Below, in pieces: positions 9,843 to 27,872 of a stretch of 64,000 nt of DNA. The stretch spans positions 558,001 to 622,000 of the forward strand of contig BPQB01000013.1 in assembly GCA_019973155.2 (NCBI GenBank), in the 5' to 3' direction. Numbering within the stretch: position 1 is the first letter of the stretch; each line of letters starts with the position of its first letter. The notes beneath the pieces are model-generated. The model was given only the letters and a program-made list of their open reading frames with translations. It ran no database searches and was not told where the DNA came from. A program made the position numbers and the translations under genes. This DNA comes from Phanerochaete sordida. Lineage: Eukaryota > Basidiomycota > Agaricomycetes > Polyporales > Phanerochaetaceae.

Positions 9843-11407
9843 TCAAGCAAGCCACTTGTGCTCTCGTAGTTCGTGACATGACGCGCGTTCGGCCGGATCG
9901 AGCGCAAACATGCGGAGCAAAAAGTCTGTGACGAGCGGCGCGTCTGGAATACCAGTGCCCTTGATGATGTCTTCGAGGAGGCATCGCTCTGCGAAGCGCA
10001 TCCTCGGTGTGCCTGCACGAGTGCTGGTCAGAGTCGACATCGATCGGAGAGAGCAAAAGTCGCATACAGTCGTCGTTGAAGAAGTATTCAGAGAACTGGC
10101 CGCGCTCAACGAGCTTCTTGGGGTAGTCGCCGAACATGATCATGTGTATGTTGGGGATCGAGAGGTCTTTCGTGTTCGGCTCGATGAGCGACTTGCCTGT
10201 CAGCAGCTCAAACACCTACAGCGCGTTCTATCGTCAGTTACAATGGGTAGAGAAGAGAAAGGCGACTCACGATGCAGCCCATACTCCATATGTCCACAGG
10301 CTTTCCCCAACCCGCGCCGATACAGACTTCAGGCGCACGGAGCGCCGAGCTCTGTATGAGCTCTACGGACCGTCTATCCCTTTTGTCTGCCCAACACGCT
10401 GCCATGGAAATCAGCACCCGACGACACCAGCCTATGCAAAGTCTACGCACAGACGCCCACGTCCCCGATCTTCGCGGTAACATGGCTCCAGGTGTCGGGC
10501 GAGTCCATGTGGCCCTCGGGCAGGCGAAAGCGGATCGGCGCCGAGCGGTAGCGCGTCACCTGCGTGCCGTCGGGAAGCGCGTCGACGGACTTGAGGCGCT
10601 CGCCTTTGTCGGCGGCGGACGCGATGATGTCAGCATCTGTCATCGCGAACATGATGTTGTCGTTCTTCATGTCTGCGTGCGACCAGTGAGCAAGGCGTAG
10701 CGCACGCGCGGCGGCCGCGACGCACCCGTGTGGATGATGTTGCAGACGTTGTGCAGGTAGTCCAGCCCCATGAGCACCTGTCGTGTGACGTGCTTCACGA
10801 GCGGGACGGGCAGCCGTCGCTTCTTCCAGCGCGCGGAGAACGAGAGCAGGTTCTCCGATAGAGGCTCAGTCACGAGACAGAGGTGACTTTCTGATTCTGG
10901 CGGATGTCGGAAGTGGTCTATGAGCTTCGTGACGTGCGGGTAGCCGGCGTGGAGGGGCTGCTGGGTGCGCATACACTGCAGAAATTCGAGCTCGTGGAGA
11001 TCTGGGTCTCGTGTTGACGATTCTATAGGCAGGAATAAGCAACCACAAAAGCGTGCTCGACGTGCAGTAACGCTAACCCGTCATGACCTTCGCAGCAGCA
11101 AGACATTTATCCCTGCGAAGCATGAGCAAGCGCACAGCGAACTCGGCAAACAGACGCACCTCTCCCTCTGCACCAGCCACACCGTCGAATAGTTCCCCCA
11201 CCCCAGCTTCCGCAGCACACGGTACTCGCCCAGGCACTCGCCGATGGATATGGGCATGTACCCGCGCTCCCTGTATGCGTCGAGCGGCTCCTCGACGTCC
11301 TGCCATGTCAGGGTCGCGTGCGCCGTCGACGACGAGGCGCGGCGGCACAGGTCACGTCGTGCGGGTGTGTGTCGAGCGCGGGGCGCATTCGCGAGCCGGC
11401 GCAGCAT
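9843..11407 (-). CDS. SRPK-like protein kinase K1 (cluster copy 1)
   Basis: Serine/arginine-rich-protein-kinase-like CMGC kinase, 415 residues. Exons on the minus strand: 11407-11160, 11112-11078 (35 nt), 11022-10726, 10672-10451, 10398-10271, 10215-10068 and 10012-9843. Visible kinase motifs: glycine loop LGWGNYSTVW, ATP lysine in AAAKVMTG, catalytic loop HTDMKNDNIMF (split by an intron right after HT), metal motif DVG followed by CWAD, and SSALRAPEV as the APE element. IWSMGCI and a C-terminal DPAERASCHELREHKWL close the fold. The HTD-x-K-x-DN and D-V-G forms match SRPK-type kinases rather than classical HRD/DFG. All catalytic residues seem present, so it is probably active. It lies 427 bp downstream of the F-box gene on the same strand. 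It is the only intact kinase of the three F-box/kinase units. Confidence 0.88.
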
Positions 11408-11834
11408 GTGAGGGCAGAGAAAGAGTGCTGGGGACGCCGTGCGCCGCCGGGCGTGATATGATCGTGGGCCTGTGGAGCGGGGGTTAGGTTGTCGGGGACG
11501 GCCTCATGGTGCTGCCGCTGGGCTCTGGGGCGGGGCCTGCGGCAGCGAGACGAGGGCAGAGCGTGTCGATGTGCATGGTCGGGCGCAGGCAGGCGTGGTG
11601 GACGTTGGCTGCAAAGCGTGCTCACGAGGTGTCGTGTGCTAGCTCGCTCTCTACGAGATTTGATGGGCCGATTCAGGCGCCCACCCGACCTGCAGCGTTC
11701 CTTGCACTTTCGACCAAGCAGCTTCAATCAGTCTGCGTTGTGAACTACAGTACTACTTGTTCGCAGTTTGAACGATAAGCGGTCATGCAATTCGATAGGG
11801 GCCGGAGGCGCAGCGTCGCGCTCGTACGGTACAC
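11408..11834. other. Spacer between F-box gene F1 and kinase K1
   Basis: 427 bases holding the 3' end of F1 and the promoter of K1. Its length is close to the corresponding spacers of the other two units (404 and 403 bases). No gene is supported. Confidence 0.5.
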
Positions 11835-25418: not shown

Positions 25419-26304
25419 GACGCGTTGAGTGCGGGAACGGTGTACCTTACGCTAACGCCTAGGTGTACTCGATTTGTCTTTACCATCCGCCGAGAGACTA
25501 TTCAGAGCACTTAATATAAGTGACATTCCATTACGCCACATTATCGGCGATATTCCCGAGCCAAGCTACGTATTTCTGCGACTTTACTGGTACCAAACCA
25601 CCTGTGATTCCGGCAACGGCATTCTTTCGTGCAATAAAATAGTCTGCGTCGGTCGGCACCAGAGGCTGTCGGACATCAAGGGCGTGTACACGGCCCCAGG
25701 CCCAGGATATGCAGACACACGTCTGTGCCGACCAGTGCTGCGCGACGTCCACCAGGCTCGTATATTCATTTGATATTCACACAGCACTCTCAACGAGTCG
25801 CCACACGCCGAATATCGCTGAATCGGAACGACAGGATCTTGAGATCGCACCAATATTTTCAGCATCAACGGCACCACTGCCCCCGACGACTATCCACAGC
25901 CGCATTCCTGCTGCGTACGCCAGAAACCCCAGGTCTGCGCATATGCTCGCTCTGTTCTTGCTCTTGCGCCCTTCTAGCAAGATGCGGTACGTCGGACGCC
26001 AGGACGTATGACCGAGCGTCAGTATCTCCCCGGCAGCTTGAAGGATACATCAGCCTCCATACCGTCCCAACGCAGAAGTGGTACAAGTGGCAATAAGCTA
26101 CGATTGGGTTGTTGTAGCATCGAGGCTGAGCGGCAGTCTGAGTGAGCCCGTAACCGGGTTTCCGTCTGACTCTCGGCATGTTCCGGCATACAGTATCAGG
26201 CAAGTTCGAGCGCTCCTGCCCATGGAAGCACCGCATCATATACGGTCACCAGCAGCAATCGGAAACGCTTCAAGGCAGTCTTCACCTAGCTCCGTACCTT
26301 CGCT
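25419..26304. other. Intergenic between K5 and K6
   Basis: About 890 bases without a supportable gene. A patch at about 25915-25945 (CCAGAAACCCC, then CTGCGCATATG) resembles 28160-28192 after K6 (CCAGAAACCCCGG, then CTGCGCAAATG). The shared patch suggests the 3' flank was duplicated together with the kinase. Confidence 0.45.
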
Positions 26305-27872
26305 ATGCTCAAGAGATCGCTAAGCGTCTTGGTATCGTGGCCATCCTCTCTCATTTATCCACCAACATTCCAGATGTCGAGAAATTCGACTTCCGCCACA
26401 TCTGTCGACCGCCCCGGGTGGGTTTCGCGCGAGGAACCGGTCGAAAGCTACGGGAAAGAATCTGGATTTCTTCCTGTTGCTATAGGCCAAGAGCTAGGTG
26501 GCTACGCTATCCTTCGGAAGCTCGGATGCGGTGTCTACTCTACCGTCTGGCTGGCTCAACGAAAGCAGTACGTCCATTATCTGCGCGGTTATTTGTCCCC
26601 TAGCTTAGCTCTACGATCCCCAGCGATGGCGAGTTTGCGGCTTTGAAAGTCATGTCAGGTACGATACCTGAATGAATACCTTGGTTTGTGTTGACCGATT
26701 TATTCATAGGCCTAGCAAGCAAACACTTCCCCGAACTCGACTTCCTCCAGCGAATGCGAAACCAGTCTCCGTCTCACCCTGGTTCATTGCACGTGACGCG
26801 CCTCATTGATCACTTCCATTGTTCTCAAGAAGATCAGGACAATTTGTGTCTCGCCTTGGAACCTCTGTCAGAGAGCCTGCACTCTTTCTCAAAGCGCTGG
26901 GGCGGAGCTCGGTTCCCCTCTGGGTTCGTCAGGCGCGTGATGCGTCAAGTGGTGCAAGGTATCGATTTCATGCATACAGAATGCAACATTATCCACACTG
27001 GTAGGTCTGCATCTGGCCCTGTCGCACTTCCCGCTCAATGCGCCACATTCCAGACATCAAGCCCGACAACGTCATGCTCGCCATCTCACCGGAAATATTA
27101 CAGGCCTCTGTCACCCCTACAAGCGAGATCCCCGTCGACGTAACCGTGACTCCAGCGGGAAAGGAGATTACTCGCACTCTGTCTACGCCCATTACGTATC
27201 CGGTGCCACCTGGCGACCTCGGCGCCAGTGAAACCTGGAAAGACGTCCAATGCAAACTTGCGGACTTCGGAGTCTGTGGGTGTGCTCATCCTTGCGCCAA
27301 GGCGTCGGCTAACTTCGTATCAGCATGCTGGGCAGACAAAACCGAAGAGCATCTTATGGAGCTGATCCAGGCTCCCGCCCTCCGTGCGCCTGAGGTCTGC
27401 CTCGGTGCGGGCTGGGGCAAGCCTGCGGACATCTGGAGCATCGGATGCATGGTATGTCCGATCTACGATCGCGCGGGCTGATTCTCACAGCATGCTCAGG
27501 CATACCAGCTCATGACGGGCAGCTCACTGATCCACGAGGAGAGCGCAGACGTGAGCATCCCGAATCTGCACGCGATATTCTTCGGGGACTGTCCGCAGGA
27601 CCTGGTGCAACGGGGCAAGTACAGCCACATGTTCTTCAACGAGGATGGTGAGCCTCGCAGCCTTCTGGCGTGCTCTACGGCGCTCACGCCGTGCTACAGG
27701 GACGCTCAAGTACAAGATGGACGAGCGCGTCACGGTCGCCGAGATGGTCAAGCGAAGGGCCCCGGGGGACGCTGATCTCCTCATCGACTTCCTCAACCAG
27801 GTTTTCGTCCTGGACCCGGCACTGAGACCCACCGCGCGGGATCTTTTAGAACATGAGTGGTTGCGCCCGTGA
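26305..27872 (+). CDS. SRPK-like protein kinase K6
   Basis: 419-residue kinase; exons 26305-26567, 26624-26658 (35 nt), 26710-27000, 27054-27275, 27324-27451, 27500-27647 and 27700-27872. Motifs: LGCGVYSTVW (the usual Trp of LGWG is Cys), FAALKVMSG, HTDIKPDNVML, LADFGVS, CWAD, ALRAPEVCLG, ADIWSIGCM, and DPALRPTARDLLEHEWL. It is the only member with a classical DFG. Catalytic residues are complete. As in K5, N-terminal residues before REEP are poorly conserved and Ser-rich. It forms the right end of the kinase cluster. Confidence 0.88.

Follow-up and report, generated by a model that had tools for sequence, protein, structure and literature searches.

Protein kinases of the SRPK family (SRPK1, SRPK2, and yeast Sky1 of the CMGC group) and F-box/leucine-rich repeat (LRR) proteins of the FBXL type (SKP2, FBXL17, FBXL2, and FBXL5) are the closest described counterparts of the genes at positions 9843 to 27872 of a 64,000-nucleotide stretch of Phanerochaete sordida YK-624 DNA (contig C13, positions 558001 to 622000), which is referred to below as the window. 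On the kinase side, the likeness lay in the best structural matches of one kinase (K6), in an insert between the DIKPDN and DFG-type motifs, and in a D-L/F-G...CW motif; on the F-box side, it lay in a predicted LRR solenoid and an N-terminal LPEELL...LLLVSKRWLRVGTPLLY motif. Expansions of SRPK(L) kinases in Fusarium (PMC6001611) and of SRPK-like kinases in Aspergillus (PMC5307856) were described, in the excerpts of those reports, as having little known function. The P. sordida kinases differ from the described family in that they form a basidiomycete branch, with 36 to 54% identity to the nearest named relatives outside P. sordida, and a local array in which one member is frameshifted and one is predicted to be catalytically dead. 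The three F-box proteins (F1 to F3) differ from the FBXL receptors in their sub-threshold or absent Pfam matches, in an insert in the F-box region, and in the Ser/acidic tails of F2 and F3.

As far as the excerpt of the corresponding report goes (PMC8665587), the tandem F-box families of Caenorhabditis share with this family tandem duplication, a few contigs with many paralogs, and purifying selection on whole genes. Unlike in Caenorhabditis, a promoter element marks part of the P. sordida family, and three of its members lie inside a kinase array. No F-box/SRPK gene pair was described among the literature matches listed, which comprised titles and abstract openings, and passages of two papers (PMC8893723 and PMC8955403) made only general mention of F-box and kinase families.

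The data presented here indicated, with high probability, that the locus consists of two unrelated, lineage-expanded families that were interleaved by local duplication in a birth-and-death process. Gene trees, synonymous divergence (dS), duplication breakpoints, and promoter content separated the two families, illustrating that a kinase/F-box neighborhood can arise without a functional partnership. We judged the array itself to be an ordinary case of interleaved families and the F-box promoter element to be the most interesting part of the locus.

Gene content and arrangement of the locus

From left to right, the locus of this white-rot fungus contains K1 (minus strand), F1 (minus), K2 (minus), F2 (minus), K3 (plus), a kinase stub (minus), F3 (minus), K4 (plus), a kinase fragment (plus), K5 (plus), and K6 (plus), that is, six SRPK-like kinase genes, two kinase remnants, and three F-box/LRR genes. 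The gene content, order, strands, exon plan, and outer ends at 9843 and 27872 had been proposed previously in a sequence-only reading of the window, and they matched our spliced alignments and our own reading of the sequence. The spacers given there between F-box stop codon and kinase ATG were exact (427 bp for F1-K1, 404 bp for F2-K2, and 403 bp for F3-stub), and the constant 35-nt second exon was found in K1 to K6. Two points qualify this description. Six kinase loci are present, but two of them are not ordinary genes, since K3 is predicted to encode a pseudokinase and K2 is interrupted by two frameshifts. Similarly, the F-box-then-kinase order does occur three times on the minus strand with these spacers, but the third kinase is a stub with approximately 57 bp of coding sequence. 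The sequence-only reading also overlooked the head-to-head pairs F2/K3 and F3/K4, which are separated by promoters of 213 and 231 bp, and the palindrome that these promoters contain.

Duplication histories of the two families

The trees of the two families did not agree pair by pair. The F-box tree was (F1,(F2,F3)), with support of 100/99 for F2 plus F3. In the kinase tree, K2 grouped with K4 (100/99), K3 grouped with K5 and K6 (81/67), a Cytidiella kinase joined K2/K4 (84/94), and K1 was placed outside; the same groups were recovered with a wider set of 29 rows. Approximately unbiased (AU) tests rejected K1 and K2 as sisters (p=3.9e-8), rejected a window-only clade of the six kinases without the Cytidiella kinase (p=0.009), and weakly rejected K3 and K4 as sisters (p=0.037). 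The dS values were 0.68 for F2-F3, 1.47 for F1-F2, 1.66 for K5-K6, and 1.87 for K3-K4, the last pair being saturated on the four-exon synonymous set. The ratios of nonsynonymous to synonymous divergence (dN/dS) were 0.26 to 0.29 for the F-box pairs, 0.14 for K5-K6, and 0.28 for K3-K5, and these pairwise, gene-level ratios gave no signal of positive selection.

Positions 16277 to 19643 aligned in one piece to positions 19871 to 23345, and the alignment began within kinase exon 1. As the start of the repeat falls within exon 1 of the kinase on the minus strand, only a stub of that kinase is present next to F3 (19871..19930, minus strand), and its homology is limited to the start of K2 exon 1 and spans approximately the first 57 bp of coding sequence. 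The 5' flank of the stub matched the 5' flank of K2 (score, 45; shuffle maximum, 19). The 3' flank of K3 matched that of K6 (score, 51; shuffle maximum, 22), and the score against the 3' flank of K4 was only 15 (p=0.03). The earlier proposal that the F-box/kinase pair was duplicated as a unit was therefore borne out only for the step from the second to the third unit, which did carry an F-box gene together with kinase sequence. The kinase of the third unit is a stub, however, K1 and K2 were rejected as sisters, and K3 and K4, besides being weakly rejected as sisters, are more divergent at synonymous sites than F2 and F3.

The history that we favor would begin with an older array of tandem kinases of the SRPK-like CMGC type, the main branches of which probably predate the split from Cytidiella. 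A single gene from a large F-box/LRR family would have entered this array, and F-box cassettes would then have been copied between the kinases. In the best case, F2 to F3, the promoter, F-box gene, and spacer appear to have been copied, and a dead stub would be what remains of the 5' end of the neighboring kinase, which traveled with them. Homology for the exchange was probably provided by the kinase ends.

Several observations weigh against separate histories for the two families. The AU test retained K2, K3, and K4 as one clade (p=0.129), and the rejection of K3 and K4 as sisters is weak. The K1-K2 dS over four exons (1.40) is close to that of F1-F2, as a joint duplication would give; the G+C content at third codon positions is 0.78 in both K1 and K2 and 0.64 to 0.67 in K4 to K6, and because of this composition bias the K1-K2 value is lowered and was not used as a clock. 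The 3' flank of K3 did not match that of K5 (score, 10), and the flanks of K4 and K6 matched weakly (score, 20; p=0.007). In addition, the F2/K3 and F3/K4 promoters aligned up to approximately 40 bp from the start codons of the kinases, with a weak final part, and because of this alignment a joint F-box/kinase copy that was followed by kinase conversion may also have produced the arrangement. Gene conversion could likewise make the F-box genes appear younger than their true age.

A functional partnership, in which the kinase tags its targets, or its F-box partner, for removal by the F-box protein, and the two genes were kept and duplicated as pairs, would account for the F-box-then-kinase order at three minus-strand places with nearly equal spacers. 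An excerpt of a report on Aspergillus nidulans (PMC9744329) provides one precedent for contact between such proteins, in that SrpkG was recovered in a pull-down with Fbx25/SconB, an F-box protein, during osmotic stress, and it keeps the idea of partners alive with a low chance of being right. The third pair is a stub, however, K1 and K2 were rejected as sisters, K2 is frameshifted, and K3 appears to be dead. We consider such a partnership very improbable.

Both families elsewhere in the genome

When the genome was searched with the F3 draft, 60 matches were obtained, 54 of which were outside the window, with 51 of these on contigs C23 and C75. One gene may yield several matches; counted as places, 48 of the 51 outside the window were on C23 and C75. 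Large F-box arrays were seen at C23:77311-438994 and C75:145489-164527. With the K6 protein, close kinases were found only in the window; of 48 matches in all, 17 lay outside, the best of these with 33% identity (E 5.3e-12), and none of them was a close kinase neighboring the C23 and C75 F-box paralogs. A PF00069 match was found within 10 kb of 5 of the 51 outside F-box places, which is a lower bound since kinases with short exons are missed. Indeed, the genome-wide PF00069 search missed K1 to K6 because of their short exons and therefore cannot prove that kinases are absent elsewhere, so the K6 query was relied on. The lack of a close kinase beside the C23 and C75 paralogs in the K6 search is a further point against a kinase/F-box partnership.

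Outside P. sordida, distant F-box relatives with 26 to 31% identity were found in Trametes species, and the kinases likewise occur in that genus; this search scored only the 7998 candidates sharing the most words. Kinase relatives are present in Cytidiella melzeri, Obba rivulosa, and Gelatoporia, and Phanerochaete carnosa has F-box relatives (PHACADRAFT_106695 and 154152). Phanerochaete carnosa and Phanerochaete chrysosporium were not among the 107 kinase rows of the protein search, which is weak evidence given the limited sensitivity of that search and its 90% clustering. The deposited proteins closest to the F3 and K6 drafts were from P. sordida (97% and 99% identity, respectively). Of the six kinases, only K3, K5, and K6 were represented by P. 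sordida entries in the 107-row kinase list, and K1, K2, and K4 may therefore be unannotated or otherwise modeled in the deposited genome.

A palindromic element in F-box promoters

A 24-nt palindrome (GTCACG AGG CACGTG AGC CGTGAC before F1, at 13002..13025, with its center approximately 124 bp from the F1 ATG) precedes each F-box gene. In the F2/K3 head-to-head promoter (17802..18014, 213 bp), it is at 17872-17895, and in the F3/K4 head-to-head promoter (21511..21741, 231 bp), it is at 21608-21631; its center is 82 to 110 bp from the F2 and F3 ATGs and 122 to 132 bp from the K3 and K4 ATGs. The three-part form GTCACGnnnCACGTGnnnCGTGAC has exactly three copies in 40.8 Mb, one before each of F1 to F3, compared to 0.0013 expected from base composition, and the genome contains no copy with one mismatch. 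When up to three mismatches were allowed, a window scan gave three matches, compared to an average of 0.07 after shuffling. Across the genome, the 24-nt palindrome had 8 places with no more than two mismatches and the control had 6, and only the three exact copies are informative here. All 18 fixed bases are identical in F1 to F3, compared to 11/60 and 10/60 flanking positions identical in all three.

The element was found by comparing F1 to F3 and was then tested on 25 paralog promoters, with the whole window and the region 400 to 600 bp upstream of the same genes as controls. CGTGAC was at the top of 1686 hexamers by count (35 versus 2.8) and was present in 13/25 promoters. After three head-to-head shared promoters were dropped, it was present in 11/22 versus 2.3 expected (p=4e-6), and it occurred in 0/22 of the 400- to 600-bp upstream regions. 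When the 22 promoters were ranked by presence, CGTGAC was third, behind its near variants GGTGAC and CGTCAC. Two points temper this result: the best presence p values (1.6e-6 to 4e-6) are only about tenfold clear of the best upstream-control hexamer (CAGCGC, 2.8e-5), and the counts are not fully independent because four promoter pairs in the set are still alike.

A related form, TCACCTGNCNCGTGAC, had three exact genome copies versus 0.5 expected, all within 80 bp of F-box match starts on C75; a single mismatch separates this form from the F1 element. At up to one mismatch, the genome counts were 5 and 5 versus 7 and 5 for the reversed control, so only the exact matches and their positions are informative. 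On C75, the inverted-repeat promoter element shared by F-box family members was seen at C75:146095, 156766, and 163939. Taken from sequence, these results make the family a candidate F-box regulon in which a single regulator would act through the GTCAC...GTGAC element; F1 to F3 would be switched on along with their paralogs. Because F-box genes on several contigs share this element, a common regulator is predicted for many putative receptors of ubiquitin ligases.

The kinase promoters differed. GTCACG/CGTGAC was absent from the 200 bp upstream of K1, K2, K5, and K6 (K2 has a lone CACGTG at -28), and K3 and K4 owe the element to their head-to-head position on the F2 and F3 promoters. The sequence-only reading had suggested that the pairs might form a phosphorylation-degradation module. 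We found this suggestion to be unsupported, since the F-box family lies mostly away from kinases and four of the six kinase promoters lack the element, with the other two sharing it head-to-head, which does not fit a shared cis-regulation of the pairs.

A narrower version of the partnership, in which only F2/K3 and F3/K4 are co-expressed via the two-way palindrome promoter, with K3 as a pseudokinase scaffold and K4 as a kinase, fits the short shared promoters and the position of the palindrome between the two ATGs. It also fits the K3 reading frame, which is open over 434 amino acids despite the catalytic losses, and the K3-K5 dN/dS of 0.28, but that ratio blends the time before and after catalytic loss. 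On C23, some F-box paralogs are likewise head-to-head over approximately 200 bp. The pairs L025/L033 and L019/L030 have GTCACG/CGTGAC within the shared stretch, but the pair L031/L024 has none in the upstream stretch that was read. Furthermore, F1 has the same element, and no kinase was found on its other side. We regard this narrower version as unlikely, although less so than the full partnership.

Structure and integrity of the kinase genes

The K1 gene (9843..11407, minus strand; coding 11407-9846, with the stop to 9843) was modeled by spliced alignment and reading as seven exons encoding 408 amino acids. Spliced alignment placed K2 at 14695..16333 (minus strand), with two frameshifts. On the plus strand are K3 (18015..19646; P0042; 434 amino acids), K4 (21742..23351; 427-amino-acid model), K5 (23839..25418; P0032; 420 amino acids), and K6 (26305..27872; 419 amino acids from the first ATG, with a coding end at 27869 and a stop at 27870-27872). 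The deposited model of K6, P0031, begins at 26374. The kinase fragment (23582..23747, plus strand) consists of two pieces with 84% and 83% identity to K3 (18580-18704 and 18737-18789). Outside the genes, a 137-bp stretch of 69% similarity was seen downstream of K3 (19711-19836) and of K6 (28206-28339).

The six kinases share one exon plan. Exon 2 is 35 nt in all six, as determined by spliced alignment in four and by reading the sequence in K1 and K2; for the latter two, the aligner itself settled on different donors (giving 51 nt and a frameshift in K1, and 40 nt in K2). The donors read from the sequence are GTTAGC in K1, which is unusual, and GTATCG in K2, and the K1 model with a 35-nt exon 2 has no internal stops. 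Exon 4 is 222 nt except in K3 (234 nt) and K2 (224 nt, frameshifted), and exons 5, 6, and 7 are 128, 148, and 170 nt, with K3 exon 5 (125 nt) and K1 exon 7 (167 nt) as exceptions. Exon 4 encodes roughly 60 residues that separate IKPDN from DFG/DLG, where the spacer of SRPKs is located. When the K6 draft, one of the six kinases, was compared to solved structures, the top 13 rows were SRPK1, SRPK2, or Sky1 (162 to 185 bits). The best match was 1wak (E 1.9e-53), and the next family was PRP4 (E 1.1e-24; 90 bits).

The models of K1, K4, K5, and K6 are open, and the catalytic Lys, Asp, and Asn and the DxG Asp are all present. Specifically, K1 has HTDMKNDN and DVG, K4 retains HTDIKPEN and has DLE where DLG is expected, and KLGWG is replaced by KLGCG in K6. 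By analogy with their family, these four are most likely active SRPK-type kinases that act independently. In the case of K2, frameshifts near 15706 and 15476 make it a probable pseudogene in decay, unless they are assembly errors; its catalytic residues are nonetheless present. In K3, VVHAAIAPEH replaces HTDIKPDN, the catalytic Asp, Lys, and Asn are gone along with the DFG-type (DLG) motif, and a GC donor is used; K3 is predicted to be a catalytically dead pseudokinase.

The frameshifts in K2, the losses in K3, the stub, the fragment at 23582-23747, and the unusual donors of K1 and K3 might suggest that the whole cluster is decaying without a selected function and that most copies are pseudogenes in progress. 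The open models of F1 to F3, K1, K4, K5, and K6, the low dN/dS values of the F-box pairs and K5-K6, and the full conservation of the fixed palindrome bases relative to their flanks argue against this idea, and we give it little credence.

Structure of the F-box genes and their tails

The F1 gene (PsYK624_058040, P0003; 11835..12890, minus strand) has three exons and encodes 310 amino acids. F2 (PsYK624_058070, P0002; 16738..17801, minus strand) encodes 315 amino acids with a Ser/acidic C-terminal tail, and F3 (PsYK624_058090, P0001) was placed at 20330..21510 (minus strand) by spliced alignment. Exon 1 is 552 nt (573 nt in F2), exon 2 is 287 nt, and exon 3 is 91 nt in F1, 85 nt in F2, and approximately 226 nt in F3 if a CTGTAG acceptor is used. 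With this acceptor, F3 ends in a Ser/Asp/Glu tail of approximately 75 amino acids that resembles the F2 tail. In the deposited F3 model, the acceptor lies 5 nt downstream and the region 20330-20555 is read in another frame; judging from the sequence, its third-exon acceptor is probably wrong. Nine other models of the family showed no Ser/acidic tail within their final 40 residues, but their ends may be incorrect, as that of P0001 probably is.

F1 matched PF12937 with an E value of 0.0069, which is under the Pfam cut-off, and F2 and F3 had no Pfam match. F-box-like matches at E<=0.1 were found in 16/30 family members (best, 1.7e-4), and precomputed Pfam domains were found in 0/30 F-box relatives. 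Several positions of the N-terminal LPEELL motif are invariant across the 30 family members, and the F-box region of the F1 to F3 family contains an insert. The F2 structure model is a predicted LRR solenoid whose best structural matches include solved FBXL chains; the matches also include ribonuclease inhibitor and NLRP proteins, with an NLRP protein in first place, and the LRR fold on its own is insufficient to establish an F-box protein. From their family, F1 to F3 are most likely receptors of Skp1-Cul1 (SCF) ubiquitin ligases with an LRR substrate surface.

The F2 and F3 tails could be phosphorylated, which would suit a kinase/F-box partnership, but RS and SR dipeptides, the target motif of SRPK kinases, are both absent from the F3 tail. 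There is a slim chance that F2/K3 and F3/K4 are co-expressed through their shared palindrome-containing promoters under the F-box-dedicated regulator and that the neighboring kinase phosphorylates the tails, or that K3 guards them, setting the activity or turnover of the receptor. If so, F2/K3 and F3/K4 would represent a recently assembled, species-level kinase/F-box unit.

Genome context

The assembly comprises 40.8 Mb in 222 contigs, and the G+C content of the window is 59.2%; for comparison, an excerpt of the published P. sordida draft genome report gives 41.2 Mb and 58.7% (PMC8530024). To the left of K1, a reading frame was seen at 8181-9497 on the minus strand. From its motifs, we take this frame to resemble an EEF2KMT/FAM86-type lysine methyltransferase.

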